A stretch of DNA of 44,604 bases, taken from NCBI GenBank assembly GCA_021298245.1, contig JAJTDZ010000032.1, forward strand, positions 1-44,604, given 5' to 3'. Position 1 is the stretch's first letter; each line of letters begins with the position of its first letter. Below the pieces are notes generated by a model that was not told the DNA's origin, ran no database searches, and saw only the letters and a list, made by a program, of their open reading frames with translations. The translations under genes and the position numbers were made by a program. Below are positions 3,660 through 44,604 of the stretch, piece by piece. This DNA comes from Algoriphagus sp. Its GTDB lineage: Bacteria; Bacteroidota; Bacteroidia; Cytophagales; Cyclobacteriaceae.

Positions 3660-6600
3660 TTATTTCTCCATAATCTTATAGCTTAACTCTGGGAGTAAGC
3701 CTAATTCTTTGATCAAAGCTGCGCTAGGATCCACGGTGATTTTTTTAGAAAATAGTTCTAGACTGATGTTTTCCTTTTGATCTACTACTTCAAAGTAAAG
3801 TTTTGCATCTCCTTTGTAAGTGGAAGTAATCTTCTCTAGCTTTTCCATGAGCTCAAGGCTAAGGTCTTCCAATCGTACGTTTACTTTTAATCCTTTGACC
3901 AACTTGCCCCGAAGTTCACTTAAAAGGGAAAGCTGATTGATTTTAAATTCAAGTTCATTTTCATTGCCCCATTTTTTTGGGATCACCGATCCAGAGAGGT
4001 ATAAAAACCACCCAGACATGAAGTAGTGTTTGAATTTGACATAATCTTCTCCAAAAAGGAAAAAGGTGTTGGAGCCCTGATAATCTTCTAAGGTGAGGGT
4101 ACCAAAGGGTTTTCCATTCTTAGTTGTTCGGTGGGCAAAACTTGATACAGATCCTGCCATTCTTAGCTCTGGTTTTCCTCTCAGGGACACCAAGTCTGCC
4201 AAAGCGGCGAGGGAGGTATTGGTAAAGGAATCGATTTCTAGTTTGTATTGATCAAGGGGATGCCCAGAAATAAATAGGCCTACCACTTCTTTTTCTATAC
4301 TTAGTTGCTGCAAAGGAGAAAAGGGTTCTAGAGGAGCTACACTGGGGAGTGGTATTTCTACTGCTCCTGAGCTGCCTCCAAAAAGACTCACTTGAGCACT
4401 TTCTTCCTCTTGCTGCACTTTTTGAGCGTACCTAATCGCTTTTTCAATCAAGGTAACATCCCCTTCGGCAGCATCCAAATACTGTCTTCTATGGTGCTCT
4501 TTAAAGCAATCAAAGCTTCCAGCCATGGCCAAGGCTTCCATGGTTTTCTTATTTAAGGCTCTAGAATTTACTCGTTTGGCAAAATCAAAGATGCTGGCAT
4601 AGGGCCCTCGGCTGTTTCTTTCTTTAATGATTTCTTCCACCGCTCCAGCTCCAGCTCCTTTTATGGCTGCCATGCCAAATCGAATTTCTCCAGCTGAATT
4701 TACGGCAAATCCACTATTGGATTCGTTGACATCAGGTCCGAGCACTGGGATTCCCATTCGCCTACATTCTTCCATAAAAAAGGTCACCTGGGTAATATCG
4801 TTCATGTTGTTGCTCAACACAGACGCCATGTATTCTGCAGGATAATGGGCCTTGAGGTAAGCGGTTTGGTAGGCTATCCAGGCATAACAGGTGGAATGAG
4901 ACTTGTTGAAGGCATAGGAGGCAAAGGCTTCCCAGTCCGTCCATATTTTTTCTAATTTTTCGGGATCATGGCCTTTGGCGGCTGCTTGGCCCACAAACTT
5001 AGGTTTCATTTTATCCAAGACTTCCTTTTGCTTTTTACCCATCGCTTTACGAAGTACATCTGCCTCTCCCTTGGTAAAATCAGCTAATTTTTGGGATAAA
5101 AGCATGACTTGCTCTTGGTACACCGTGATCCCATAGGTCTCTTCCAGGTAATCTTTCATGTCCTCTAGGTCATAGCTTATGGGTTCTAATCCATGTTTCC
5201 TTTTGATGAAGGAAGGAATATAAGCTAAGGGACCTGGTCTATAGAGGGCATTCATGGCAATCAGATCTGCAAACACGGTAGGCTTGAGTTCTCGCATGTA
5301 TTTTTGCATGCCAGGACTTTCGTACTGGAATATGCCTACCGTTTCCCCGCGTTGAAACAACTCGTAGGTCTTCAGATCATCGATGGGAAAGGAATCTGCA
5401 TCTAGGAGAATCCCATGCCTTTCTTTGATGATTTTGATAGTATCTTTGATTAAGGTGAGGGTTTTTAGACCCAAAAAATCCATTTTTAATAAGCCAGCGG
5501 ATTCTACTACGGCATTGTCAAATTGGGTGCACACCATTTCCGAATCTTTGGCCAATGCCACGGGTACAAAATCGGTAATGTCGGATGGGGTTATGATTAC
5601 TCCGCAAGCGTGAATGCCCGTGTTGCGGACCGATCCTTCCAATACTGCAGCCTGGTGTATGGTTTTTGAAGATTCGTCTCCAACTTGAGCGATACGAAGG
5701 AGTTCTTCTGCCTTCTGTAAAAGTTCACCTTGACCTTTAAGTTTATCCAATAGGGCTGGCCTATTTTTAGCAAGTTCAAACAAGGTTTTAAGTTTGATAT
5801 CCGGCACCAAATTAGCTAATCTTCCTGCCTCTGAAAGGGGTAAATTGAGCACCCTGGCCGTATCTCTGATGGCGGATTTTGCTGCCATGGTACCATAGGT
5901 GATGATCTGGGCGACTTGGCTAGACCCGTATTTATTGATCACATAATCAATGACTGCCTGTCGTCCTTCGTCGTCAAAATCAATATCAATATCTGGCAAA
6001 GAGACTCGGTCAGGATTAAGAAATCGTTCGAATAGGAGGTTATATGCTATGGGATCTACATTGGTTATACCCACACAATAAGCCACGGCTGAGCCAGCAG
6101 CTGAACCCCTGCCGGGTCCTACGGCAACCCCCATTTCTCTAGCAGCTCGAGTAAAATCCTGTACAATCAAGAAATATCCTGGGTATCCTGTTTTTTCTAT
6201 GGTACTCAGCTCAAAATCCAGTCTTTCTTGTAGCTCCAAGCTAATTTCTGGATACCTTTTCTTTGCTCCTTCGTAAGCAAGATGACGTAGGTAGGCATTT
6301 TCTCCTCGTTTTCCTCCATCCAATTCGTCTTCAGGATGCTTAAATTCTTCGGGAATAGCAAATTTTGGTAAGAGTACCTCTCGGGTAAGCGCATAGGGCT
6401 CGCATTTTTCTACGATTTCTTGCGTACAAGAAATAGCCTGGGGAAGATCTGAAAATAGGGATTTCATTTCCTCCTGGCTTTTCAAATAAAATTCATCGTT
6501 GGGGAAGCCAAATCGAAATTCCCTACCTCGCTTTCCCATGTATTTTTTTGGTCTCTCCTGCAACTCTCCGTCTTTGACGCAGAGTAAGATGTCGTGCGCA

Positions 6601-7505
6601 TTCGCATCGGCTTTTTGATTGTAATAGGTGGAGTTGGCTGCGAAATATTTTACCCCATACTTTTGCGCAAAACTCAGCAATACTTCGTTGACCTTGTCCT
6701 CTTCAGGGATGCCGTGTCGGTTAAGTTCAACATAAAAATCCTCCCCAAACTGTTCTTTCCACCAAACAAAGGCTTCTTCGGCTTGCGTTTCGCCTACGTT
6801 GAGAATGAGGTAGGGGATTTCTCCCCAAAGCCCACCTGTAGTAGCGATCAAATTTGCTTTGTATTGAACTAAAAGTTCCTTGTCTATTCTTGGTACGTAA
6901 TAAAAACCCTCCATATTGGCATAGGAGGCAAGCTTTGCCAGATGGTGGTATCCAGATTTATTTTTTGCCAAAAGGACCGTTTGGTAGCCATCTTCTTTGA
7001 TGGATTTATTTTTTCTGTCCCTGCATAGGTAAAATTCAGCACCCACAATGGGCTTGATTTCTTTTCGAATTGCTTCTTGCACAAAATGAAAAGCCCCCAT
7101 CATATTGCCATGATCGGTAATGGCCAGGGCCTTCATGCCAAAGGCTTTGGCTTGGGCGAGTAAGGAAGGAATTTCAGAAGTGGCTTGTAGAACTGAAAAC
7201 TGAGTATGTACGTGCAAATGGGTGAAAGAAACGTCTTCTAGGGATTGCAGTCCCTGAACAGGGGTATTTTTTTGATGCGCTGGATCTTGTTGTGCCGAAG
7301 ATTTTTGCTTGGCTTGAGCAAAATTGGCCTCTGCCAACTGGGGTGCTTGGTAGCGAATTTCTTCTAGGGAAATTCCCGGTTCAGGACTGTGTATTTGCTG
7401 AGCAATCAATTCAAAAAAGCAGCGTGCGGTAGCATCTACATCGTAGGCTGCGTCATGGGCATCGTCAAAGCCGATTCCAAACAATTTTTGATGGAGCTCG
7501 GTCAA
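3660..7505 (-). CDS. dnaE: DNA polymerase III alpha subunit, with the end of a DnaQ-type exonuclease domain at its N terminus
   Basis: This is the replicative polymerase chain. The 1281-residue frame contains the PHP domain (FTHLHVHTQFS, from about residue 94), the VGPGRGSAAGS block (462-472), and the polymerase aspartates in LPDIDIDF (Asp505 and Asp507). It also has the fingers and helix-hairpin-helix regions, and a C-terminal OB-fold (MAGSVSSF…). Residues 1-30 are not DnaE. HDAAYDVDATARCFFEL is the Exo III block of a DnaQ-like exonuclease whose Exo I and II lie in the preceding frame. The start used here is a TTG at 7505 overlapping the upstream stop as TTGA, so reinitiation is possible. 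Upstream of that TTG the same frame stays open for at least a dozen codons and reads GGKYKWPT, which fits the joined protein, so this is probably not a native start. Confidence 0.9.
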   Translation of the reverse strand: MTELHQKLFGIGFDDAHDAAYDVDATARCFFELIAQQIHSPEPGISLEEIRYQAPQLAEANFAQAKQKSSAQQDPAHQKNTPVQGLQSLEDVSFTHLHVHTQFSVLQATSEIPSLLAQAKAFGMKALAITDHGNMMGAFHFVQEAIRKEIKPIVGAEFYLCRDRKNKSIKEDGYQTVLLAKNKSGYHHLAKLASYANMEGFYYVPRIDKELLVQYKANLIATTGGLWGEIPYLILNVGETQAEEAFVWWKEQFGEDFYVELNRHGIPEEDKVNEVLLSFAQKYGVKYFAANSTYYNQKADANAHDILLCVKDGELQERPKKYMGKRGREFRFGFPNDEFYLKSQEEMKSLFSDLPQAISCTQEIVEKCEPYALTREVLLPKFAIPEEFKHPEDELDGGKRGENAYLRHLAYEGAKKRYPEISLELQERLDFELSTIEKTGYPGYFLIVQDFTRAAREMGVAVGPGRGSAAGSAVAYCVGITNVDPIAYNLLFERFLNPDRVSLPDIDIDFDDEGRQAVIDYVINKYGSSQVAQIITYGTMAAKSAIRDTARVLNLPLSEAGRLANLVPDIKLKTLFELAKNRPALLDKLKGQGELLQKAEELLRIAQVGDESSKTIHQAAVLEGSVRNTGIHACGVIITPSDITDFVPVALAKDSEMVCTQFDNAVVESAGLLKMDFLGLKTLTLIKDTIKIIKERHGILLDADSFPIDDLKTYELFQRGETVGIFQYESPGMQKYMRELKPTVFADLIAMNALYRPGPLAYIPSFIKRKHGLEPISYDLEDMKDYLEETYGITVYQEQVMLLSQKLADFTKGEADVLRKAMGKKQKEVLDKMKPKFVGQAAAKGHDPEKLEKIWTDWEAFASYAFNKSHSTCYAWIAYQTAYLKAHYPAEYMASVLSNNMNDITQVTFFMEECRRMGIPVLGPDVNESNSGFAVNSAGEIRFGMAAIKGAGAGAVEEIIKERNSRGPYASIFDFAKRVNSRALNKKTMEALAMAGSFDCFKEHHRRQYLDAAEGDVTLIEKAIRYAQKVQQEEESAQVSLFGGSSGAVEIPLPSVAPLEPFSPLQQLSIEKEVVGLFISGHPLDQYKLEIDSFTNTSLAALADLVSLRGKPELRMAGSVSSFAHRTTKNGKPFGTLTLEDYQGSNTFFLFGEDYVKFKHYFMSGWFLYLSGSVIPKKWGNENELEFKINQLSLLSELRGKLVKGLKVNVRLEDLSLELMEKLEKITSTYKGDAKLYFEVVDQKENISLELFSKKITVDPSAALIKELGLLPELSYKIMEK

Positions 7506-7924
7506 TGTTGGCCATTTATACTTTCCTCCCCTTTGGTGTCTAGTTCAATTTTTTCATCAAAAGGCATCTGTAAGGATGCTCGCAAAAATTCAGCCCCTAC
7601 CACATGTACGTCAAAACCTATGTTGTGACCCACTACGTATCGTGACTGTACTAGATCTGCCTGAAAAATATCTAGGATTTCTCTTAAGTCGTGACCTTCC
7701 TCCAATGCCCTTTGCGTAGAAATCCCATGGACTTTTTCAGCATTGTAGGGGATAGTAAAACCCTCTGGACGAATGATGTAATTTTTTTGAGATAGTAAAG
7801 AACCCTTTCCGTCATGCAGTTGCCAAGCCACCTGCACTACCCGAGGCCAGTTGTCTACATCAGACATGGGGGCATGGTAGGTTCTGGGTAAGCCAGTAGT
7901 CTCGGTATCAAATATGAGGTACAT
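7502..7924 (-). CDS. N-terminal fragment of the DnaQ-like exonuclease normally fused to DnaE
   Basis: The 140-residue frame starts MYLIFDTETTGLP (Exo I, Asp and Glu) and contains VVGHNIGFD (Exo II), but stops at DTKGEESINGQH before Exo III. Exo III (HDAAYDVD) is in the next frame, at the start of the dnaE entry. In related Bacteroidota I recall one polypeptide of about 1430 residues, with a cysteine- and glycine-rich link (about a dozen residues) between DT and GGKYKWPT. That link is missing here and the frame shifts in bases 7526-7534. The fragment alone lacks a complete active site. It could be a real mutation, a very short-overlap two-gene arrangement, or a sequence error. Confidence 0.75.
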   Translation of the reverse strand: MYLIFDTETTGLPRTYHAPMSDVDNWPRVVQVAWQLHDGKGSLLSQKNYIIRPEGFTIPYNAEKVHGISTQRALEEGHDLREILDIFQADLVQSRYVVGHNIGFDVHVVGAEFLRASLQMPFDEKIELDTKGEESINGQH

Positions 7925-11814: not shown

Positions 11815-12888
11815 ATGAAGATCCTAGATAAACTTATTATTAAAGAGTTTTTGAAGACCTATTTTTTTGTGGTGGTCTTACTCATTCTTGTGGTTTTGGT
11901 GCTGGATTTTACCGAAAAAAACGATACCTACATTAGAAATCAGGTGCCGGCAAAAGATATTCTCAAGTACATGGGAAACTATGGGCTGTACCTCAACAAC
12001 TTGTTGACACCCATCACGGTATTTATTGCTGTAATCTTCATTACCTCCAAGATGGCAGGACGTACCGAAATAGTTGCTATGCTGAGTTCGGGCATAAGTT
12101 TTATCCGCCTTCTAAGACCTTTTCTATTGGCAGCTACCTTGATCGGAGGGGTTAGTTTTTTTCTCAATGGATGGGTATTACCGGGCGCTACTGGAAGCGT
12201 TTCTCAATTTCGGATACGCTATTTAGAAAAAGGGGAGGCATCTACCGACCCCAATATTCATATTAAGGTTGGACCCACTGGCTATGCCTACCTAAGTAGA
12301 TTTTACAAAACGAGCTATACGGGATATAATTTTACCTTAGAAGAGATCAAGGAAGGAAGGCTTCTCTCCAAGCTTTCCTCGGATGTCATTCAATGGGATA
12401 CCACCAAAAACGTGTGGAGGCTAGAAAATTGGAGGCTTAGGGTGCTTCAGGAGCGTGGAGAAGAATATACTACTGGAGCTTCCTTGGATACCTTGCTTTC
12501 CATTACTCCAGTAGATTTTGACTTGCCAGAAAACCATCATGAAACCCTAAAACTTCCAGAATTAAGCAGGCAAATTCGCCTCCTTGAGGAGCGTGGTGCC
12601 GATAACGTAAGTTACTACCGCATCGAGCGCATAGTGCGGTTTATGTCTCCTTTTGCTTCAGTGATTCTCACCTTTATTGGAGTGATCATGTCTGCACGCA
12701 AGACTCGTGGAGGCTCTGGATTTAAGATTGCTTTGGGATTTTTTATGGCATTCGTTTACATCATTTTGTTTTTGCTATCGAGGACTTTTGCAGAAGCCGG
12801 AACACAATTTCCCGTGTTGGCCGTTTGGCTGCCCAACTTGGTTTTTGCGGCTATGGGGTTAATTCTCTATAAAACGGTACCTAGGTGA
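11815..12888 (+). CDS. LptF/LptG family permease (YjgP/YjgQ)
   Basis: The 357-residue inner-membrane protein has the family layout. There are three N-terminal membrane segments (about residues 15-32, 55-75 and 95-115), a soluble periplasmic domain of roughly 150 residues, and three C-terminal segments (about 275-352). It opens with KILDKLIIKEFLKTYFFVV, the typical LptF/LptG start. In the LPS transport complex such a subunit pairs with a second permease and LptB to extract lipopolysaccharide and feed the LptC/A bridge. Whether it is LptF or LptG cannot be decided here. It follows tgt by one base and overlaps the EamA gene by 4 bases (GTGA). Confidence 0.92.
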   Translation: MKILDKLIIKEFLKTYFFVVVLLILVVLVLDFTEKNDTYIRNQVPAKDILKYMGNYGLYLNNLLTPITVFIAVIFITSKMAGRTEIVAMLSSGISFIRLLRPFLLAATLIGGVSFFLNGWVLPGATGSVSQFRIRYLEKGEASTDPNIHIKVGPTGYAYLSRFYKTSYTGYNFTLEEIKEGRLLSKLSSDVIQWDTTKNVWRLENWRLRVLQERGEEYTTGASLDTLLSITPVDFDLPENHHETLKLPELSRQIRLLEERGADNVSYYRIERIVRFMSPFASVILTFIGVIMSARKTRGGSGFKIALGFFMAFVYIILFLLSRTFAEAGTQFPVLAVWLPNLVFAAMGLILYKTVPR

Positions 12889-13839
12889 ATTCCCTCGCTT
12901 CCATCAAGGATTACTTGTTGCTCCATTTTTTGGTATTGATTTGGGGGTTTACCGCCATTTTAGGCCTATTGATTAGCTTGCCTCCTTTGGAGTTGGTTTT
13001 TTACCGAACCCTCCTGGCTGCCTTGGGGGTGGGCTTGCTGATAGGGTACAAAAAAGAATCCTTTAGCATTCCCTGGCGCCAATTGCTCCGTATTTGCGGA
13101 GTGGGGGTCTTGATTTCCCTTCACTGGATTTTTTTCTTTTGGTCAGCCAAGGTATCTACTGCTTCGGTGTGTTTGGCAGGGATGGCCACTACCTCCCTTT
13201 GGACAGCATTTGTGGATCCTTTGATCAATCGTACTCGGGTGAAATGGTACGAGGTTGGACTTGGAATTACGGTGATTTCTGGGCTTTTGGTAATTTTTCA
13301 ATTCGAAAGTGGGTATTGGTTGGGACTATCCATGGCCATAATCTCTGCTTTGCTAAGCGCTCTCTTTTCCGTGCTCAATGGGCTTTTGACTCGGTACCAC
13401 AGTCCTTATCAGATTACCTTTTATGAAATGGGAACTGCAAGTTTGGTCGCCTTACTAGTTTTACCCTTTTACGCCTACTTTTTTTCTGATGGGGGAGAAA
13501 TTCAATGGTATTGGAAAGGGTTGGATTGGTTGTGGCTGTTTCTTTTGGGAGGGATTTGTACGGTATTTGCCTTTTCGGCTTCGGTAGAATTGATGAAACG
13601 GCTGCCTGTATTTTCTATTAATTTGACTATCAATTTGGAACCGGTGTATGGAATCGTTTTGGCAGTTTTGATTTTTGGAGAAAATGAAAAAATGACCAGT
13701 TTTGATTTTTGGAGAAAATGAAAAAATGACACCTGGATTTTACCTAGGTACTTTGATTATTCTGGTTTCAGTGCTGAGCTACCCGGTGTTGCACTACGGA
13801 CTTAGGAAGGCTAGCGAAAAAACAACAAAAACTAGGTAA
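12885..13839 (+). pseudogene. EamA/DMT-superfamily transporter, frame broken by a 34-bp tandem duplication
   Basis: The frame starts with GTG at 12885 and runs 278 codons to a stop at 13721. It encodes a drug/metabolite transporter of the EamA type (LIWGFTAILGLLISLPPLELVFYR, with repeated membrane segments), but the end reads FGENEKMTSFDFWRK. Bases 13663-13696 are repeated exactly at 13697-13730; 34 is not a multiple of three, so the second copy shifts the frame. With one copy removed the frame continues as FGENEKMTPGFYLGTLIILV… to a stop at 13837-13839. That gives a 306-residue protein with the last membrane segment (VSVLSYPVLHYGL) restored. The third gene of the tgt operon, its substrate is unknown. 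Loss of only the last helix might leave partial function. Confidence 0.88.
13663..13730. repeat. Perfect 34-bp tandem duplication inside the EamA gene
   Basis: Copies 13663-13696 and 13697-13730 are identical, each beginning CAGTTTTGATTTTTGGAG and ending AAAAAATGAC. The flanks differ immediately outside. The duplication is what breaks the transporter frame. Confidence 0.95.
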
Positions 13840-15100: not shown

Positions 15101-15165
15101 GGCACTAGATCTTTTGATTCGTTAGTATTCCTTCACAAGTGCCTCAGGAAGCTGAGGCATTTTTT
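15074..15165 (+). promoter_or_regulatory. Transcription attenuator of the ilv-leu operon
   Basis: Three mutually exclusive pairings are visible. The terminator is TGCCTCAG (15140-15147) with CTGAGGCA (15152-15159), followed by TTTTTT at 15160-15165. The antiterminator is AGGCACT (15100-15106) with AGTGCCT (15139-15145), which uses the terminator's 5' arm. The anti-antiterminator is TGCCT (15074-15078) with AGGCA (15100-15104), whose first arm lies in the leader-peptide codons. A ribosome stalled at Leu12-Val14 would mask 15074-15078 and favour antitermination. ilvD starts 12 bases after the T run. Confidence 0.75.
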
Positions 15166-15177
15166 ATAAAAAATTGC

Positions 15178-16863
15178 ATGAATCGTAGTCCATTAAAAAA
15201 ATACAGTTGGGAAATCAGTGATAATCCCGAGCATCCGGCAGGCATGGCCATGCTCTATGCTACGGGTATGTCAGATAAAAAGATGAAACAACCCTTTGTA
15301 GGAATTGCCAGTTGTGGCTACGAGAGCAATCCCTGCAACATGCACCTCAATGACTTTGCCGGTTTGATCAAGTCCTCTTCCCAGGAGCAAGATCTGACCG
15401 GTTTGGTTTTTAATACCATGGGAATTTCTGACGGCACTTCTATGGGGACCTTAGGGATGCGTTATTCTCTAGTATCTAGAGAAATTATTGCAGACTCTAT
15501 AGAATCCTTCATTTTAGGCCATTCTTTTGATGCTTGTGTAGCGGTAGCAGGATGCGATAAAAATATGCCAGGGGCCATCATGGGTATGCTCCGCATCAAT
15601 AGACCCAGCATCATGGTTTATGGAGGCACCATAGCTTCAGGGATTTACAAGGGGGAAAAACTCAATATCGTTTCTGCATTTGAAGCTTTTGGAAAGAAAA
15701 TTCAAGGCACCAGTTCAGATGAGGATTACCAGTGGGTCATAAGAAATGCCTGTCCTGGAGCTGGAGCTTGTGGGGGGATGTATACCGCAAATACCATGTC
15801 TTCAGCGATTGAAGCCATGGGCATGTCCTTGCCTTATTCTGCCTCCTACCCTGCTAATTCTCCCGAGAAGGCAAGAGAATGTCGGGAGGTGAATCGGTAC
15901 ATCAAAGTGCTTTTGGAAAAGGACCTCAAGCCCAAAGATATTGTGACGCGAAAAAGTATAGAAAATGCCGTTCGTGTGGTCATTGCTTTGGGAGGTAGTA
16001 CCAATGCCGTCCTTCATATTTTGGCTATTGCTCGTACCGCTGGAGTGGCATTTACCCTGCAGGATTTCAAGGAATTGAATGCCAAAACTCCTTTGCTGGG
16101 GGATTTTAAACCTTCGGGAACATTCCTGATGGAAGACTTGCATGAGCAAGGGGGTCTGCCTGCTTTCATGCGGTATTTTTTGGATAAGGGCTATCTCCAT
16201 GGAGACTGCATGACCGTCACCGGAAAGACCTTGGCCGAAAATTTAGAACAGGTACAGGCCATTGTTCCCTCTGCAGTCAATGTCATTCATCCGGTAGAAT
16301 CCCCTATAAAAGAATCGGGTCATTTGTGTATTCTCTCAGGTAACCTTGCTCCACAGGGTGCTGTAGCTAAAATTACTGGTAAAGAGGGAAGAAGATTTAC
16401 AGGTCCAGCCAAGGTATTTGATTCTGAATTGGAGGCCAACAATGCCATCCGAGACCATCAGGTCAAGGCGGGGGACGTGGTGGTCATACGAAATGTAGGA
16501 CCCAAAGGAGCTCCTGGAATGCCAGAAATGCTCAAACCTACCTCCATGATCATCGGAGCGGGACTTGGGGCAGACGTGGCCCTGATCACCGATGGAAGAT
16601 TTTCCGGAGGTACTCATGGATTTGTGGTAGGTCATGTAACACCCGAAGCTTGGTGCGGAGGTCCCATAGGTTTGCTCCGAGATGGAGATGTGATTACCAT
16701 AGATACAGACCAGCAAGCACTGGAAGTAAACGTGAGCGAGGAGGAATTTGCAAAAAGGAAGGCAAGCTGGTCTCCCAAGCCCATTGAAGGACTTCAAGGA
16801 ACGCTAAAAAAATACAATGCCTTGGTTGCTACCGCTTCGGAGGGATGTGTAACCGACAATTAA
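15178..16863 (+). CDS. ilvD: Dihydroxy-acid dehydratase
   Basis: IlvD dehydrates 2,3-dihydroxy acids to the 2-keto acids of valine and isoleucine, using an iron-sulfur cluster and Mg. The 561-residue protein has the normal length. It carries the cluster-cysteine blocks [26 protein letters not shown] and [14 protein letters not shown], plus [16 protein letters not shown] near the C terminus. The frame is open back to a GTG at 15139, but that start lies inside the terminator hairpin. The ATG at 15178 ([14 protein letters not shown]) aligns with the family and lies just past the hairpin, so it is preferred. It is the first structural gene of the operon, 7 bases before ilvB. Confidence 0.97.
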
Positions 16864-16870
16864 ACAAGTA

Positions 16871-18562
16871 ATGGATAAGAACTTAAGAGGCGCAGATATG
16901 GTGGTTCGGTCCTTAATTGCCGAACAAGCAGACCTGATTTTTGGGTACCCTGGTGGGGCTATCATGCCCGTGTACGATGCCTTGTACGATTACCACGATC
17001 AAATCAAGCATGTCCTTACCCGCCACGAGCAAGGAGCTATACATGCGGCACAAGGCTATGCACGGGTATCGGGAAGGGTAGGCGTTTGCTTAGCCACCTC
17101 TGGCCCCGGAGCTACCAATTTGATCACTGGATTGGCCGATGCCTTGATAGATAGTACTCCCTTGGTTTGCATTACTGGCCAAGTGGCCGCCCATTTGTTG
17201 GGATCCGATGCCTTTCAGGAGACCGATATGGTCGGGATTTCTATGCCAGGGACCAAATGGAATATACAAGTAAGAAGGGTAGAAGACATCGCTCCTGCCA
17301 TTGCAAAGGGGTTTTACATTGCTCGTTCCGGTAGACCGGGTCCCGTATTGATCGATATTACTAAAAATGCCCAAGTGGATTTCGGATCCTTTCGATACGA
17401 ACCCTGTCTAGGTTTTCGATCTTATAAAACCCATCATCCTGTAGATCCTGCTTCTGTTTATGAGGCAGCTGCTTTGATAAATAAGGCAGAAAGGCCTTAT
17501 CTTCTTTTTGGACAAGGGGTAATTTTGGCACAGGCAGAAACAGCACTCAAACAGTTTTTGGACAAATCTGGCATACCTGCTGCCTCCACCCTATTGGGTT
17601 CTGGAGCTTTGTCGCAAGATCATCCTAATTTTGTGGGCAAACTGGGCATGCACGGCAACTATGCTCCAAATCTGCTCACCAACCAGTGTGACGTATTGAT
17701 CGCCGTGGGGATGCGCTTTGACGATAGGGTCACAGGAGATTTGTCAAGGTATGCCAAACAAGCCAAGGTGATACATCTGGAACTCGATCCTTCCGAAATC
17801 AACAAAAATGTAAAGGCTACCGTGGCCATCCAAGGGGATTGTAAAGAAAGTTTGACGCTGCTCTCAGAAGCCATTTCTCCCAAAAAACACGATACATGGA
17901 TGGCTAATTTCCGATCTCTGGAAAAGCAAGAAAAGGAAGCTGTAGTAAACCTTGACCTGACCCCCACCAAACCGGGGCTGACCATGGGAGAAGTAATCCA
18001 TCACATCAATAAATACAAGGCGGATGACGCCGTGTTGGTGACCGATGTGGGACAACACCAAATGATAGCCTGGAGGTACTTCAATTACAAAAAACCCAGA
18101 ACCCAAATTACCTCAGGGGGACTTGGGACCATGGGGTTTGCATTGCCTGCAGCTTTGGGAGCCCAATTGCACGACTATTCCCGTCAGGTCATCTGTGTGG
18201 TAGGAGATGGGGGCATTCAAATGACCATTCAAGAATTGGGTACCATCATGCAAACCAAGGCTCCGGTAAAAATTGTGTTGTTGAATAACAATTACTTGGG
18301 CATGGTTCGTCAATGGCAGCAAATGTTTTTTGACAAACGCTATTCATTTACCGAACTAGATAATCCAGATTTTATCAAGCTCTCTGAAGCCTACGGAATC
18401 AAGGCTCAAAAAGTATCTGAAAGATCCGATTTGAAAGAAGCTGTAGAAGATATGCTTATTTACGATGGCCCCTTCTTCCTAGAAGTTGTGGTGGAGAAAG
18501 AGGACAATGTCTTCCCCATGATTGCTACGGGATCTTCCGTGGAAGAAGTTAGACTGCGTTAA
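16871..18562 (+). CDS. ilvB: Acetolactate synthase, large (catalytic) subunit
   Basis: The enzyme condenses two pyruvates to acetolactate, or pyruvate with 2-ketobutyrate, using thiamine diphosphate, FAD and Mg. The 563-residue protein shows the catalytic glutamate in TRHEQGAIHAAQGYAR, the FAD region RFDDRVTGDLSRYAKQA, and the TPP/Mg motif GDGGIQMTIQE…NNNYLGMVRQWQ near residues 440-480. The length is typical of bacterial IlvB/IlvI. It is followed 9 bases later by the regulatory subunit, so an IlvBN holoenzyme is expected. It shares the attenuated ilvD transcript. Confidence 0.97.
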   Translation: MDKNLRGADMVVRSLIAEQADLIFGYPGGAIMPVYDALYDYHDQIKHVLTRHEQGAIHAAQGYARVSGRVGVCLATSGPGATNLITGLADALIDSTPLVCITGQVAAHLLGSDAFQETDMVGISMPGTKWNIQVRRVEDIAPAIAKGFYIARSGRPGPVLIDITKNAQVDFGSFRYEPCLGFRSYKTHHPVDPASVYEAAALINKAERPYLLFGQGVILAQAETALKQFLDKSGIPAASTLLGSGALSQDHPNFVGKLGMHGNYAPNLLTNQCDVLIAVGMRFDDRVTGDLSRYAKQAKVIHLELDPSEINKNVKATVAIQGDCKESLTLLSEAISPKKHDTWMANFRSLEKQEKEAVVNLDLTPTKPGLTMGEVIHHINKYKADDAVLVTDVGQHQMIAWRYFNYKKPRTQITSGGLGTMGFALPAALGAQLHDYSRQVICVVGDGGIQMTIQELGTIMQTKAPVKIVLLNNNYLGMVRQWQQMFFDKRYSFTELDNPDFIKLSEAYGIKAQKVSERSDLKEAVEDMLIYDGPFFLEVVVEKEDNVFPMIATGSSVEEVRLR

Positions 18563-18571
18563 TCCAAACCT

Positions 18572-19072
18572 ATGAAACGATATACGATTTTTGTCATTAC
18601 GGAGAATTTTATCGGCATACTCAATAGAATCACCATCATTTTTACCCGAAGGGGAATCAATATTGATGCCCTCACAGCCTCTGAGAGTAGGGTGCCGGGA
18701 GTTCACCGTATTACCATAGAAGTGACAGTCAACGAAGAAACTGTAATTCAACTGGTCAATCAAATTGAAAAAGTCATTGACGTGATCAAGGCATTTTATC
18801 ATGAAGATACGGGTGTAGTTTATCAAGAATTGGCCTTGTACAAGCTTCCAGTCTCTAGACTGGATGGAGGCTTAGAAAAAATCATTAGAGACCACCATGC
18901 AAAAATTATAGCTGCAGAACCAGATTTTGTGGTCTTGGAACTCACTGGTCACAAAGAAAAAACTCGGGAGCTTTTGGAAATTTTGAAAGGCTACGGAATC
19001 TTAGAATTTGCCCGGTCTGGTAGAGTTGCCGTAGCCAAACGCATGCTTACCATTGACTCATTTGTCAATTGA
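18572..19072 (+). CDS. ilvN: Acetolactate synthase, small (regulatory) subunit
   Basis: The 166-residue protein begins with an ACT domain (YTIFVITENFIGILNRITIIFTRRGINIDALT) that binds valine for feedback inhibition in this family. It ends with the ALS small-subunit C-terminal domain. The length matches IlvH/IlvN proteins of about 160-170 residues. It sits directly after ilvB and 37 bases before ilvC. Whether this variant is valine-sensitive cannot be told from the sequence alone. Confidence 0.95.
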   Translation: MKRYTIFVITENFIGILNRITIIFTRRGINIDALTASESRVPGVHRITIEVTVNEETVIQLVNQIEKVIDVIKAFYHEDTGVVYQELALYKLPVSRLDGGLEKIIRDHHAKIIAAEPDFVVLELTGHKEKTRELLEILKGYGILEFARSGRVAVAKRMLTIDSFVN

Positions 19073-19109
19073 CATCCTATTTAGTTAACTAGAAATTAAT
19101 CCCCAACCT

Positions 19110-20153
19110 ATGAAATTAAAATTTGGAAACGTAGAAGAAAACGTGGTGACCAGAGAAGAATTCCCTTTAGAAAAAGCCAGGGAGGTTCTCCAAAACGAAG
19201 TGATTGCAGTCATTGGATATGGCGTGCAAGGTCCAGGTCAAGCCCTAAATCTGAAAGACAATGGATTTAACGTCATCGTTGGTCAACGAAAAGGTTCCAA
19301 AACTTGGGACAAGGCAGTTTCCGACGGATGGGTGCCTGGCAAAACCCTTTTTGAAATCGAAGAAGCCTGTTCCCGTGGAACTATCCTCCAATTTTTGCTT
19401 TCTGATGCAGGACAAATTGCCCTTTGGCCTACTTTGAAAAAATACTTAAGTCCAGGAAAAGCTTTGTATTTCTCTCATGGATTTGGCATTACCTACAAGG
19501 AGAAAACAGGAATTATCCCCCCAGCAGAGGTGGATGTCATTTTGGTGGCTCCTAAGGGCTCGGGTACTTCCTTGAGAAGAATGTTTGTAGAAGGCAGAGG
19601 CTTAAATTCCTCCTATGCCATCTATCAAGATGCTACAGGAAAGGCCAAGGACCGCGTGATTGCCTTGGGTATTGGGGTAGGTTCCGGATATTTATTTGAA
19701 ACCGATTTTTACCGTGAGGTAACTTCTGACCTAACTGGAGAACGTGGCACCTTGATGGGGGCCATTCAGGGTATTTTTGCTGCCCAATACGAAGTGCTTC
19801 GCGCAAATGGGCACACCCCTTCCGAAGCTTTCAATGAAACGGTAGAAGAACTCACCCAATCCTTGATGCCCTTGGTTGCAGAAAATGGAATGGACTGGAT
19901 GTATGCCAATTGCTCTACCACCGCACAGCGAGGTGCTTTGGATTGGTGGAAGCCATTTCGAGATGCCACCAAACCAGTCTTTGAAGCCTTGTACCAGTCC
20001 GTAAAATCAGGGGTAGAGGCTCAAAAATCTATTGATTCCAACTCCAAGGCAGATTACAGGGAAAAATTAGAAGCAGAATTAGCCCAATTGAGGGAGTCGG
20101 AAATGTGGCAGGCAGGAGCCGTGGTGCGCAAGTTGAGACCAGAAAATAATTAA
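19110..20153 (+). CDS. ilvC: Ketol-acid reductoisomerase
   Basis: IlvC isomerises and reduces acetolactate or acetohydroxybutyrate with NAD(P)H and Mg. The 347-residue protein has the Rossmann motif VIGYGVQGPGQALNLKDNG (about residues 34-52) and the cofactor-specificity loop GQRKGSKTWDKA. It also has the acid-rich metal region (SDLTGERGTLMG) and the conserved ETVEELTQSLMPL helix. The loop holds Arg, Lys and Ser, which fits NADPH preference. It is of the shorter class I size with a slightly longer N-terminal part. It lies between ilvN and leuA, the join between the common valine path and the leucine branch. Confidence 0.96.
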   Translation: MKLKFGNVEENVVTREEFPLEKAREVLQNEVIAVIGYGVQGPGQALNLKDNGFNVIVGQRKGSKTWDKAVSDGWVPGKTLFEIEEACSRGTILQFLLSDAGQIALWPTLKKYLSPGKALYFSHGFGITYKEKTGIIPPAEVDVILVAPKGSGTSLRRMFVEGRGLNSSYAIYQDATGKAKDRVIALGIGVGSGYLFETDFYREVTSDLTGERGTLMGAIQGIFAAQYEVLRANGHTPSEAFNETVEELTQSLMPLVAENGMDWMYANCSTTAQRGALDWWKPFRDATKPVFEALYQSVKSGVEAQKSIDSNSKADYREKLEAELAQLRESEMWQAGAVVRKLRPENN

Positions 20154-20174
20154 CCTTACTAATCCTAGAAGGAC

Positions 20175-21683
20175 ATGAGTGAAAAGCTATGGATATTTGA
20201 TACTACCCTTAGAGATGGGGAACAAGTGCCTGGGTGCCAGCTAAACTTTGAAGAGAAAATCAGAGTTGCCAAAGCCCTGGAGGAATTGGGTGTAGACATC
20301 ATTGAAGCTGGATTTCCCATTTCGAGTCCTGGAGATTTCAAATCTGTAGAAGAAATTTCCAAAGCGGTATCTGAGCCGATTATTTGCGCTCTTTCAAGAG
20401 CAGTCGAGAAAGATATAGAAGTGGCTGCTGCGGCCTTGCACTACGCAAAAAAAGGCCGAATACACACCGGAATTGGAGTTTCTCCCTACCATATACAATT
20501 TAAATTGCGTTCTACCCCCGAGGATATCATACAGCGGGGAGTCGCTGCCGTGAAGTTTGCAAAAAAGTTTGTGGAGGACGTGGAGTTTTATGCCGAAGAT
20601 GCTGGCCGTGCTGAGCCTGATTTTCTCTGTAAGATCATAGAGGAAGTGATCAAAGCAGGGGCGACGGTGGTCAATATTCCAGATACTACAGGCTATTGCT
20701 TGCCTGAGCAATACGGGGCCATTATCTCTAATCTAAAAAATAGAGTACCTAACATTGACCGCGCCATTATTGCTACCCATTGCCACAATGACCTAGGCAT
20801 GGCCACGGCTAATACCGTAGCTGGGGTGCAACACGGTGCAAGACAAGTAGAAGTGACGGTCAATGGCATAGGAGAACGGGCAGGCAATACTTCCATGGAA
20901 GAGGTGGTCATGGCCATCAAGTGCCATGCCTCGATTCCTGTACACACCCAAATAGTTACTCCTAAAATTTACCAAACCAGTAGATTGGTTTCTAAGTTGA
21001 TGAACATGCCTGTTCAACCCAACAAAGCAATCGTGGGTAGAAATGCCTTTGCGCATTCTTCAGGAATCCATCAGGATGGGGTGCTCAAGCACAGAGAAAA
21101 TTACGAAATCATAGATCCGAAAGAGGTTGGGGTAGAAGAGTCGACCATTGTACTTACCGCCCGATCCGGAAGAGCTGCCCTGAAGCACCATTTGGATGCT
21201 TTAGGAGTGGTATTAGAAGGAGAAGAATTACGAGAAGTGTATGAAGCCTTTCTCCTTTTGGCCGATAAAAAGAGAGATATCGGAAGAAAAGATTTACTGG
21301 AACTTGTTGGCAAATACATGGATGAGTCCAACTTTATAGAACTCGAACACGTAAGCTATTCTTCCCAAGGTAGCCTCCAAGCCAGCGTTCAACTTAAAAT
21401 TGGAAATACCACTCATCAAGCTACTGCTACAGGAGTAGGACCGGTAGATGCGGTGCTGAAGGCCATTGAATCCCTGGTAAAACCTCAAGTAGATATGGAG
21501 GAGTTTTTGATTCAAGCCATGACCCAAGGTAGCGATGATGTAGCCAAGGTACATATGCGACTGATCAAATCTGAAAAACCTTACTACGGATTTGCTTCAA
21601 ATCAAGACATTGTCTTGGCTTCAGCACAGGCCTTTGTAGATGCCCTCAACAAAATTCCAGTCAAAGAATACGTGACTGCTTAA
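20175..21683 (+). CDS. leuA: 2-isopropylmalate synthase
   Basis: LeuA condenses acetyl-CoA with 2-ketoisovalerate, the first leucine-specific step. The 502-residue protein opens with [21 protein letters not shown]. It has the metal-binding [12 protein letters not shown] motif, the [14 protein letters not shown] block, and a C-terminal regulatory (LeuA dimer) domain (about residues 380-500) that normally binds leucine. Its catalytic loop and length match bona fide LeuA. A second, divergent member of the same family lies downstream at 23588, so the two probably differ in substrate. It is followed by leuC after 2 bases. Confidence 0.95.
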
Positions 21684-21685
21684 TT

Positions 21686-23092
21686 ATGGAAAAGAAAACA
21701 TTATTTGATAAGATTTGGGATGCACATGTGGTCAAATCGGTACCTGAAGGTCCAGATGTATTTTTTATTGACAAGCATTTCATTCATGAAGTGACTTCTC
21801 CTGTGGCCTTCCTAAACCTGGAAAAAAGAGGGATAGGGGTCAGGTATCCTCACCGAACCATCGCCACTCCAGATCATAATGTGCCTACAGTAGACCAAGA
21901 TCAAACCATCAAAGACAAACTTTCTCGCATGCAAGTGGAGAAGTTGCGGGAGAATTGTGCGAAGTACGGCATTGAACTTCATGATCTGGGTTCTGCACAC
22001 CATGGAATCGTCCATGTCATCGGACCCGAACTGGGGGTGACTCAGCCAGGCATGACCATAGTTTGTGGCGACTCCCATACTTCTACCCATGGGGCTTTTG
22101 GAGCCATTGCTTTCGGTATTGGTACTTCAGAAGTAGAAATGGTTTTGGCTACGCAATGCATCATGCAATCCAAACCCAAGAAAATGAGGATTTCGGTAGA
22201 AGGGAAATTGGGTGCTGGAGTAACCTCCAAAGACATTATTCTATATATCATCTCCAAAATCTCTGCTGCCGGAGCTACGGGATACTTTGTGGAATACGCA
22301 GGATCTGCTATCCAAAGTTTGTCCATGGAAGCCCGCATGACCGTCTGCAACATGTCCATAGAGATGGGAGCTCGTGGGGGCTTGATTGCTCCTGACGAAA
22401 CTACTTTCGCTTACCTCAAAGGAAAAACCTATGCTCCTTCCGGAGAGGAGTGGACCAAGGCCCTAGCCTATTGGCGTACCTTGAAGACCGATGAGGGAGC
22501 AAGTTTTGACGAAGAGTTGCAATTTGATGCCAAGGACATAGAACCTATGATTACTTACGGAACCAATCCTGGCATGGGGATCAAGGTCAATGCAAGCATT
22601 CCTACCGCCGAAGGAATGGAAGGATCCAATAAGTCCTCCTACCTCAAATCTTTGGAGTATATGGGATTTTCTCCAGGCGAAGCCATCCTTGGTAAAGCGG
22701 TAGACTATGTCTTTGTGGGCTCTTGTACCAATGGACGAATCGAAGACATTCGATCGGTAGCCCAAATGGTCAAGGGCAAGAAAAAAGCCAGCAACATTAC
22801 GGCTTGGATCGTACCTGGATCAAGGGAAGTAGAAAAGCAAGCCCACGCGGAAGGCTTGGTTGCTATCTTAGAAGAAGCTGGATTTGAGTTGAGACAGCCG
22901 GGCTGCTCTGCCTGCTTGGCCATGAATGACGATAAGATCCCGGCTGGTAAATACGCCGTTTCTACTTCCAATAGGAATTTCGAAGGTCGCCAAGGGCCTG
23001 GAGCAAGAACCATGCTTGCCTCACCTTTGACGGTGGCAGCAGTTGCCATCACTGGGCGCATCACCGATCCACGGGAAGTATTTGGAAATTGA
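21686..23092 (+). CDS. leuC: 3-isopropylmalate dehydratase, large subunit
   Basis: LeuC and LeuD together isomerise 2- to 3-isopropylmalate with a [4Fe-4S] cluster. The 468-residue LeuC has the substrate/metal block [20 protein letters not shown]. Its cluster cysteines lie in [13 protein letters not shown] (one) and [14 protein letters not shown] (two), so it looks complete and active. The partner leuD directly downstream is badly truncated, which leaves this subunit without its swivel-domain partner unless leuD exists elsewhere. After the stop there is a 92-base gap with a palindromic repeat, the longest gap inside the operon. Confidence 0.97.
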
Positions 23093-23097
23093 AAATA

Positions 23098-23116
23098 CCT
23101 GCCTGCGGCAGGCAGG
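23098..23116. repeat. Dispersed palindrome, copy 1
   Basis: CCTGCCTGCGGCAGGCAGG has 9-bp arms around one base. It lies 6 bases after the leuC stop, between leuC and leuD. A near-identical copy (one substitution) is at 32723-32741. It could fold as an RNA hairpin within the operon transcript and alter expression of the genes after it. Confidence 0.8.
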
Positions 23117-23184
23117 CGTAATTTATGGAATGCAGGGAAAAGACCACCCGAAGTCCTATTTGACCACCTTTGAACGAACAACAA

Positions 23185-23576
23185 ATGGCTTACGATAAAT
23201 TTACCCAGGTAAAAATTTTGGATGCGGTTCCAGTAGAGAGCATGCCGTATGGGCAATCTATGACTATGGGTTCCGTTGTGTGGTTTCCAGTTTTTTTGCA
23301 GATATATTCAAAAACAACTGCCTCAATATAGGGGTGCTCCCGGTCACCGTGTCGGCCTCTTTTGCGGATCGTATCCTGAGCGAAGTAGCAAAGCATCCCG
23401 ATACCGAATTGGAAATAGATCTTCAAAACCAGCGCATTACGCTTTTGTCGACCGGAGATGGAGAAACATTTGACATCAATGCCTACAAAAAAGGCAACAT
23501 GCAACATGGCTTTGATGACATCGATTACTTGCTCAACATGGCCTCAGCCATTGATACTTTCGCAGCATCGAGGTAA
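23185..23576 (+). pseudogene. leuD: Remnant of leuD (3-isopropylmalate dehydratase, small subunit)
   Basis: The ATG at 23185 begins MAYDKFT, a proper LeuD start. From about 23208 the match moves to another frame reading GKNFGCGSSREHAVWAIYDY, then FFADIFKNNCLNIGVLP and, at the end, GFDDIDYLLN, the LeuD middle and C terminus. The stretch that normally lies between these (the ENVDTDQIIPARFLK region and about 60-70 further residues) is absent and the frames do not match. A short GTG-started frame (23280-23576, 98 codons) remains open but lacks the GCGSSREH motif. The family is usually about 200 residues; about 130 codons are left. As given the gene cannot make LeuD. Confidence 0.9.
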
Positions 23577-23587
23577 TGTAGTTTGTC

Positions 23588-25117
23588 ATGGGGGCAAGGA
23601 AAATAGAACTGATGGACACCACCCTAAGGGATGGGGAACAAACCTCTGGGGTTTCCTTTTTGCCATCAGAAAAGCTTCAAATTGCCAAAGCTTTGTTGGA
23701 AGAGCTCAAGGTAGACCGCATAGAAGTAGCCTCTGCAAGGGTATCCGAGGGGGAATTGGAAGGAGCGCAACGAATTACCCAATGGGCAGCGCAAAAAGGG
23801 CTCTTGGACAAGGTAGAGGTTTTAGGCTTTGTAGATACTCCAGTTTCTGTGCATTGGATCTTAGAGGCAGGAGCTAAAGTGCTCAACCTGCTGACCAAAG
23901 GTTCACTCAATCACCTGCAGCACCAGTTGAAGAAGACTCCAGCGCAACACTTTTCTGAAATCGAGACCTGTATTTCCTATGCCGTAGATAAAGGGCTCGA
24001 GATCAATGTATACCTGGAGGATTGGTCCAACGGCATGAAGCACTCCCCGGAATATACCAAAAGTATCATTGAATTTCTTTCCCGGCAGCCCATACGGCGC
24101 ATCATGCTTCCAGATACTTTGGGCATCCTATCACCCAAAGAAGTTAGGGAATATCTCCATCAGTTTCTTTCAGCATATCCTCAAATCCACTTTGATTTTC
24201 ATGCGCACAATGACTACGACCTGTCGGTAGCCAATGTACTGGAAGCCCTTCAAGTAGGAGTCTCGGGTATCCATACCACAATCAATGGTCTTGGAGAACG
24301 GGCTGGAAATGCTCCCTTGGAATCGGTAATAGCGGTAATCAAAGATTTCACTGATTTGGAAGTAGGTATTCAAGAACAAAAAATCTATAGGGTATCCAAA
24401 TTGGTGGAACAAATCTCCGGTCAATACATTCCAGCCAATAAGCCCGTAGTAGGAGAAAATGTGTTTACTCAAACAGCAGGGATTCATGCCGATGGGGATA
24501 ATAAAAAGAATCTTTACTTCAGTGATTTGCTGCCAGAGCGATTTGGAAGGCAGCGGAGATATGCCCTAGGCAAAACTTCTGGCAAAGCCAATATTGTAAA
24601 AAACTTAGAAAGCCTGGGCATTTCCCTAGAGCCCGAAGAATTAGCAAAAGTGACCCAAAGGATCATAGCACTGGGAGATAAAAAAGAGCGGGTAACTACC
24701 GAAGATTTGCCCTACATCATTTCCGATGTTTTGCAACACGATGCCATTGCCAAACTCATCAGTATAGAAGATTACCAGATGACCCAAGCCAAAGGCTTGC
24801 GCCCAAGCATGCACCTTCGTCTCCAAGTGAATGGAAAAGGTTATGACGCAACCGGTACTGGGGATGGACAATACGATGCATTTATGAATGCAGTTGCCAA
24901 CATCTATTCCTCCCTTCACCGAGAACTTCCTAAATTGGTTAATTATCATGTTACCATCCCTCCAGGAGGAAAAACAGATGCCTTGGTAGAGACTGTCATT
25001 ACTTGGGAGCATGGAAAACTTTTCAAAACCAAAGGACTTGATCCTGACCAAACTGTAGCTGCCATGATGGCTACTGAGAAAATGTTGAATATATTAGAAA
25101 CTTTACCTTCTGTCTAA
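23588..25117 (+). CDS. Second LeuA-family synthase, candidate (R)-citramalate synthase
   Basis: The 509-residue protein belongs to the HMG-CoA lyase-like/LeuA family. It has [16 protein letters not shown] at the start, the metal-binding DFHAHNDYDLSVAN, INGLGERAGNAPLE, and a C-terminal regulatory dimer domain (about residues 385-505). It is clearly different from the neighbouring leuA. In Bacteroidota this type is often annotated only as an isopropylmalate synthase regulatory-domain protein. A role as citramalate synthase (pyruvate plus acetyl-CoA, giving a threonine-independent route to 2-ketobutyrate and isoleucine through LeuCD and LeuB) would fit its place between leuD and leuB. Function is inference; a second isopropylmalate synthase is the alternative. 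Confidence 0.85.
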   Translation: MGARKIELMDTTLRDGEQTSGVSFLPSEKLQIAKALLEELKVDRIEVASARVSEGELEGAQRITQWAAQKGLLDKVEVLGFVDTPVSVHWILEAGAKVLNLLTKGSLNHLQHQLKKTPAQHFSEIETCISYAVDKGLEINVYLEDWSNGMKHSPEYTKSIIEFLSRQPIRRIMLPDTLGILSPKEVREYLHQFLSAYPQIHFDFHAHNDYDLSVANVLEALQVGVSGIHTTINGLGERAGNAPLESVIAVIKDFTDLEVGIQEQKIYRVSKLVEQISGQYIPANKPVVGENVFTQTAGIHADGDNKKNLYFSDLLPERFGRQRRYALGKTSGKANIVKNLESLGISLEPEELAKVTQRIIALGDKKERVTTEDLPYIISDVLQHDAIAKLISIEDYQMTQAKGLRPSMHLRLQVNGKGYDATGTGDGQYDAFMNAVANIYSSLHRELPKLVNYHVTIPPGGKTDALVETVITWEHGKLFKTKGLDPDQTVAAMMATEKMLNILETLPSV

Positions 25118-25135
25118 ACAAAGTCTTTCAAGCTC

Positions 25136-26206
25136 ATGCAACTAAAAATAGCCCTCTTACCCGGTGATGGTATTGGTCCAGAAGTGATAGATCAGGCCGT
25201 AAAAGTGGTCAAGGCCATAGGAAAAAAATTTGGACATAGCCTCAGTTTTGAAACGGGCCTCGTAGGAGCTTGTGCCATAGATGCTACAGGAGACCCTTAC
25301 CCTGATACTTCCCACGACATCTGTGTGGGCGCTGATGCGGTACTTTTTGGAGCAATTGGTGATCCCAAATACGACAACGATCCCAAAGCCAAAGTGCGTC
25401 CGGAACAGGGTTTGCTTCGCATGCGACAAAAATTGGGACTCTTTGCCAATGTACGTCCTACCTTTACTTTTCCTTCTTTGGTGCACAAATCCCCCCTCAA
25501 ACTAGACCGTGTGGATGGGGTAGATTTTGTCTTCTTTAGAGAGCTAACGGGAGGGATTTATTTTGGTGAGCCTAGAGGAAGAAACGAGCAAGGCACCAAG
25601 GCTTTTGACACCAATGTCTACAGCAAAGAAGAGATTGTACGTTTGGCAAGAATGGGATTTGAAGCGGCCAGAGGGAGAAGAAAATTGCTCACTTGCGTAG
25701 ACAAAGCCAATGTCATGGCTACTTCGCGCTTGTGGAGAGAGACGGTACAGGAACTTGCCTTGGAATACCCGGACGTGAAAGTAGAGTATGAATTTGTGGA
25801 CGCCGTGGCCATGCGACTGATTCAATGGCCCAAGGCCTACGATGTGTTGATTACTGAGAATCTTTTTGGAGATATTTTGACCGATGAGGCCTCTGTGATT
25901 TCGGGATCTATGGGATTGATGCCCTCCGCCTCTTTGGGATCAAAGGTCAAGTTGTTTGAACCTATTCATGGATCTTATCCCCAAGCAGCTGGAAAAAATA
26001 TTGCCAATCCTCTTGCCACTATTTTGTCTGCTGCGATGATGTTTGACTATGCGTTTGGTTTGAAAGCCGAATCAAATGCTATATCCGATGTAGTGAATCA
26101 ATCCTTGGCGGAAGGAATGGTGACAGAAGATATTGCTGAAGGGGGCAAGGCCTATACAACTTCCGAAGTGGGGGATTGGTTGGCGGAAAGGCTAGCCACC
26201 AACTAA
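25136..26206 (+). CDS. leuB: 3-isopropylmalate dehydrogenase
   Basis: LeuB oxidises and decarboxylates 3-isopropylmalate to 2-ketoisocaproate with NAD. The 356-residue protein shows the family start LKIALLPGDGIGPEV, the RPEQGLLRMRQKLGLFANVRP block, FFRELTGGIYFGEPRGR, the metal aspartates in ITENLFGDILTDEAS, and the NAD region FEPIHGSYPQAAGKNIANPLA. The length is typical. It is the last gene of the ilv-leu operon, 18 bases after the second synthase. Together with a citramalate synthase it could also act on methylmalate. Confidence 0.97.
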   Translation: MQLKIALLPGDGIGPEVIDQAVKVVKAIGKKFGHSLSFETGLVGACAIDATGDPYPDTSHDICVGADAVLFGAIGDPKYDNDPKAKVRPEQGLLRMRQKLGLFANVRPTFTFPSLVHKSPLKLDRVDGVDFVFFRELTGGIYFGEPRGRNEQGTKAFDTNVYSKEEIVRLARMGFEAARGRRKLLTCVDKANVMATSRLWRETVQELALEYPDVKVEYEFVDAVAMRLIQWPKAYDVLITENLFGDILTDEASVISGSMGLMPSASLGSKVKLFEPIHGSYPQAAGKNIANPLATILSAAMMFDYAFGLKAESNAISDVVNQSLAEGMVTEDIAEGGKAYTTSEVGDWLAERLATN

Positions 26207-32691: not shown

Positions 32692-32868
32692 GTACCAAGT
32701 ACCAAGTACGAAGTATGAGCTACCTACCTGCGGCAGGCAGGCGAAATACGATCTAAGCTAATGTCGAATGTCTAACACCAAATACAGAATATTGTGGTGG
32801 AAATTCGTAAATCATGAGAAACTCGTACCACGTAAATCTTCTTTCTAAGAATACTTGGTACTTGGTAC
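32692..32868. repeat. 177-bp segment bounded by 17-bp inverted repeats (possible non-coding mobile or repeat element)
   Basis: GTACCAAGTACCAAGTA (32692-32708) is the exact reverse complement of TACTTGGTACTTGGTAC (32852-32868). Each arm is itself built from a repeated GTACCAA unit. The interior holds the dispersed palindrome at 32723-32741 and no supported frame. Its layout resembles a small MITE-like element in the 294-base gap between the YwqK-repeat gene and the next gene; no flanking target duplication was found. Confidence 0.65.
32723..32741. repeat. Dispersed palindrome, copy 2
   Basis: CCTACCTGCGGCAGGCAGG differs from the copy at 23098-23116 by one base (A for G at position 4). It lies inside the inverted-repeat-bounded segment 32692-32868. 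Confidence 0.8.

Positions 32869-44507: not shown

Positions 44508-44604
<97 letters not shown>

Follow-up and report, generated by a model that had tools for sequence, protein, structure and literature searches.

A 199-nucleotide gap in the leuD gene of an Algoriphagus draft genome, very probably an artefact of assembly

Draft genomes from the environment are a frequent source of inferred auxotrophies. The contigs of short-read drafts can carry mis-joins, which share no bases at the join, take no account of the reading frame, leave exact tandem duplications or a run of N as a placeholder, and hit core genes along with others. We analysed a stretch of 44,604 nucleotides from Algoriphagus sp. 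(called the window here), which contains a broken leuD gene at 23185-23576 of the forward strand. This gene resembles the LeuD family (TIGR00171) in its MAYDKFT start, in its C-terminal part GKNFGCGSSREH and in its position directly after leuC. It differs from the family in that about 66 residues are missing, including the ENVDTDQIIPARFLK stretch of its relatives, and in that the frame changes.

The draft genome to which the window belongs, as contig C15, has 2,478,186 bases in 96 contigs, with a completeness of 83% and a contamination of 0.7%. Our reference is the closest genome compared (G002, the sister genome below), which is itself a draft and has a nucleotide identity of 93.6% across the window. 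Its counterpart contig is collinear with the window, and its leuD has 201 codons. A 16S rRNA gene (RF00177) begins within the right end of the window (44508-44604). The left end (1-100) has no match in Rfam and resembles the 3' end of a 5S rRNA. The sister contig spans nearly the same interval, hence both contigs probably stop at rRNA operons.

The leucine operon and the gap in leuD

The row of genes at 15139-26206 reads ilvD-ilvB-ilvN-ilvC-leuA-leuC-leuD-(citramalate-synthase-like)-leuB, and leuD is the only broken gene in it. A preliminary description of this DNA had considered leuA, leuC and leuB to be intact, and indeed all three exceed their family cut-offs, with 701 bits (NF002086), 668 bits (TIGR00170) and 451 bits (TIGR00169), respectively. 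On the forward strand, the full-length leuC (21686..23092) is followed by the leuD start at 23185, and the full-length citramalate-synthase-like gene (23588..25117) lies between leuD and the full-length leuB (25136..26206). The best match of the citramalate-synthase-like gene is the Leptospira-type CimA model, under the cut-off of that model. We also observed a palindrome, CCTGCCTGCGGCAGGCAGG, at 23098-23116 and 32723-32741 (with one mismatch in the second copy), both intergenic and with no counterpart in 100 shuffles; it is perhaps a small repeat element.

The preliminary description had also proposed an internal out-of-frame deletion of leuD, with 60-70 residues lost and a missing piece of about 200 bases, and the comparison with relatives bears this out. 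The 5' remnant (MAYDKFT, 23185..23205, forward strand) lies in the frame of the ATG at 23185, which runs for 48 residues (MAYDKFTQVKILDAV...TTASI) into a stop, and no single open frame leads from the N- to the C-terminus. The C-terminal part of LeuD (122 residues) is open in a different frame from the GGT at 23208 to the stop at 23574-23576, and this 3' remnant (23208..23576, forward strand) matches the sister protein in 119/122 residues. We collected 126 leuD loci of relatives, some genomes being represented twice since two collections were used. The distance from the ATG to the GK codons is 222 nt in 114 of these 126 loci, including 59/59 of the loci L014-L072, and the remaining 12, which are more distant, differ in their start positions. 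In the window this distance is 23 nt, hence 199 nt (1 mod 3) are missing at the join (23205..23206, forward strand), in agreement with the alignment to the sister gene.

In the sister genome the missing piece is bounded by TTTACC|TTGCTTCGC on the left and by GTAG|CAGGTAAAAATTTTGG on the right, and the window has TTTACC|CAGGTAAAAATTTTGG. No base is common to the two ends. The preliminary description had placed AGGTAAAA at 23207-23214 and let it fit both ends of a deletion between short direct repeats. Its position is correct, but in the relatives it fits the right-hand end only. We rejected the direct-repeat model, as no bases are shared in the sister genome and AGGTAA is absent from the first 60 nt in 114/114 of the loci with the standard start.

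The remnant scores 102.3 bits against TIGR00171, covering model positions 70-184 of 188, and falls under the cut-off of 116.25 for membership in LeuD. All the other genomes of the genus that we searched (58/58, i.e. 35/35 and 23/23) reach this cut-off, so that among 59 genomes the draft alone falls short. Beyond the genus, the cut-off is reached by 14 of 22 genomes of the order, and in the other 8 LeuD is absent or below it. Across the wider order, then, leuD has indeed been lost at times, which is a point against an artefact.

A search for a second leuD, which the preliminary description had called for, found none in the draft by profile, the other match being a 755-aa aconitase. When the missing piece was searched for as DNA in the draft, only 22 bases to the right of the join were matched. 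With the draft just 83% complete, the absence of a second leuD or of a displaced middle piece is weak evidence if taken alone.

The genes leuA, leuB and leuC and what is left of leuD showed no relaxed selection, with dN/dS at about 0.025-0.04 (leuC 0.025, leuB 0.038, and for the remnant 0.04 at a dS of 0.49 against the sister gene). The remnant is still conserved much like leuC and leuB, and hence the loss is not old: if the organism has the deletion at all, it arose extremely recently.

If it does have it, the sampled cells would have undergone a real deletion very recently, giving a lineage without leucine synthesis, and perhaps without isoleucine synthesis if this runs via the citramalate route. 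The clean join without any N, the lack of a second leuD in the incomplete draft and the 8 of 22 genomes of the order without a LeuD above the cut-off would agree with it. The lack of a repeat at the join, the leucine genes without relaxed selection and the 58 congeners with LeuD argue against it, and so do eight more genes, several of them core genes, that are broken alike in a sample of 15% of the draft. We therefore regard a real deletion as unlikely, and with it the leucine auxotrophy that had been deduced from the gap.

As to isoleucine, the regulatory domain of threonine deaminase (PF00585) matched none of 16 genomes of the genus, in a search whose control was positive in just 5/14 genomes. 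The draft has four matches to the PLP family: one is tryptophan synthase beta, the second is like cystathionine beta-synthase or cysteine synthase, the third is like D-cysteine desulfhydrase, and the fourth is a fragment that comes closest to hydroxyaspartate dehydratase and matches threonine deaminase more weakly, below the cut-offs.

Genes broken alike in the same draft

We compared 19 stretches of the draft, i.e. the window and 18 more, with their counterparts in the sister genome. They cover 362,562 bases of the draft including the window, or about 15% of it, and the aligned span is 333,912 bases (~334 kb). The 18 additional stretches were picked around ABC-transporter and PLP-enzyme genes present in both genomes, and thus the sample is not random. 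Segments of more than 6000 bases between anchors were left out of the comparison, and clustered or compensated coding gaps of at least 20 nt (21 shorter in the draft and 14 longer) were left out of the deletion count.

Nine isolated out-of-frame deletions, of 23, 32, 37, 85, 104, 109, 173, 199 and 217 nt, break genes of the draft that are open in the sister genome, leuD with its 199 nt being one of them. The frame change is seen at the protein level for each of the nine, in leuD by a match from the 3' part only. The reverse search over the same 19 stretches found no out-of-frame deletion of at least 10 nt in the sister genome against an open gene of the draft, and a second count with a threshold of 20 nt found none either; the sole out-of-frame case in that direction is a 49-nt duplication of the draft's own. 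The lesion is thus found at many loci of the draft but not in its sister, 9 vs 0 in the aligned span. No base is shared at the join in 8/9 of the deletions, and one base is shared in the remaining one. Besides the 9 out-of-frame cases, the isolated coding deletions of the draft include 6 in frame, a proportion near the 2:1 of frame-blind joins, and there are 2 in-frame cases in the opposite direction.

Outside open genes, the indels of at least 20 nt are about even (40 shorter in the draft and 42 longer), and short gaps (1-3 nt) that put a gene out of frame go both ways (4 shorter in the draft and 7 longer over the 334 kb). The one-sidedness is therefore specific to the larger deletions within genes. 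The even indels and two-way short gaps also count as a point against an artefact. An assembly from error-prone long reads was rejected as an explanation, as the 1-3 nt gaps are few and not one-sided towards the draft. A cruder screen flagged 24/269 genes of the sister genome as broken in the draft and 22/279 genes of the draft as broken in the sister genome; many of these are single stops, overlaps near gene ends or small frame changes, and by these totals the two genomes cannot be told apart.

Using Pfam and NCBIfam on the sister genes, we identified the broken genes besides leuD as dnaE, a xylulokinase-like kinase, mnmE, a metal ABC permease fused to a repressor domain, hemB, pgi and uvrB; one more encodes a 402-aa protein with no family in either scan. 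In the window, dnaE with an N-terminal exonuclease domain (3660..7924, reverse strand) has its 37-nt out-of-frame deletion at 7531, inside the exonuclease domain, and the polymerase frame is spared. The draft has only two pieces of hemB (porphobilinogen synthase), in different frames, compared with a sister piece that begins at model position 55. Only pieces of pgi (glucose-6-phosphate isomerase) are present, split at the deletion on contig C68 and with the 3' end on contig C40. The UvrB domain PF12344 is absent from the draft, in a search whose control was positive in 12/14 genomes. Some bacteria can do without mnmE or uvrB, which, like the spared polymerase frame, is a point against an artefact. 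The pooled dN/dS is 0.054 for the nine broken genes vs 0.076 for the other genes.

A tenth candidate, a deletion of 103 nt in a MOSC-domain gene (L165:7391), was rejected, since the proteins match unbroken over 268/268 residues with 67% identity and the alignment of this diverged gene had slipped. One stretch (L163, positions 1-18000 of contig C12) accumulates six isolated deletions in coding sequence within 17 kb, with sizes of 63-217 nt, and two of these are out of frame; this contig is perhaps one of low depth.

The draft also carries perfect tandem duplications. One of 34 nt (13663..13730 of the window, forward strand) causes a frameshift close to the 3' end of a gene for an EamA-type transporter (12885-13721) and is not in the sister genome, and the 49-nt duplication lies in a gene for a glycoside hydrolase of family 3 (L183:2921, contig C60). 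The same scan found none in the stretches of the sister genome. At one place (L183:9445, contig C60) the draft has a run of exactly 25 N where the sister genome has 118 bases. About 2.5 kb of the draft at L161:10902 (contig C4) are missing from that place in the sister genome.

Origin of the gap

Several core genes are broken alike in the same draft, and hence the gap in leuD is most likely a mistake of assembly. Our analysis suggests that it is not a real mutation and that leuD is very probably intact in the organism. Two contig ends flanking a short stretch of leuD that the assembly could not resolve, the 199 nt, would have been abutted and the gap left unmarked. Contig ends abutted without overlap would give deletions with no shared bases, and the sizes found would fit inside one read-pair insert. 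Where the ends of neighbouring contigs overlap, the same joining without merging would give exact tandem duplications. Judged from the assembled sequence, such a joining step is the most likely cause. Two further points speak against it. The draft marks one gap with N, hence the other joins would have been left unmarked, and the comparison depends on a single sister genome, a draft, with stretches that were not chosen at random.

Drafts from communities blend strains, so the deletion could be carried by a part of the population and the assembler could have taken that version; an assembler also normally needs reads across a join. We consider such a strain mixture very improbable. Many unlinked gene-breaking variants would have to be chosen in one draft, and the tandem duplications and the run of N would be left unexplained. 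The remaining explanation takes all the deletions to be real: the lineage would just have lost parts of the proofreading domain of its DNA polymerase and of UvrB, and would be shedding leuD, hemB, pgi and mnmE by repeat-free deletions while living off the community. We give this the least credence of all, as a simultaneous recent loss of parts of hemB, pgi, uvrB, mnmE and dnaE is hard to believe, and abutted contig ends are preferred.

A clean-looking loss of leuD in a complete operon would pass as leucine auxotrophy, and one sister genome is enough to expose core genes broken alike. A cheap check before believing a gene loss is to take the nearest relative and count the repeat-free out-of-frame deletions and the exact tandem duplications.

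Compared with the pseudogenes of amino-acid pathways, the locus is similar in that one biosynthetic gene is broken in an operon that is otherwise complete. It differs from them in that genes outside amino-acid synthesis (hemB, pgi, mnmE, uvrB and dnaE) are broken alike and the leucine genes show no sign of relaxed selection. The mis-joins of contigs in short-read drafts are the closer match: the joins of this draft share no bases, are at most 217 nt in size, are blind to the frame, affect core genes, and are accompanied by exact tandem duplications and a run of N. The difference here is that a single sampled site bears the N mark.
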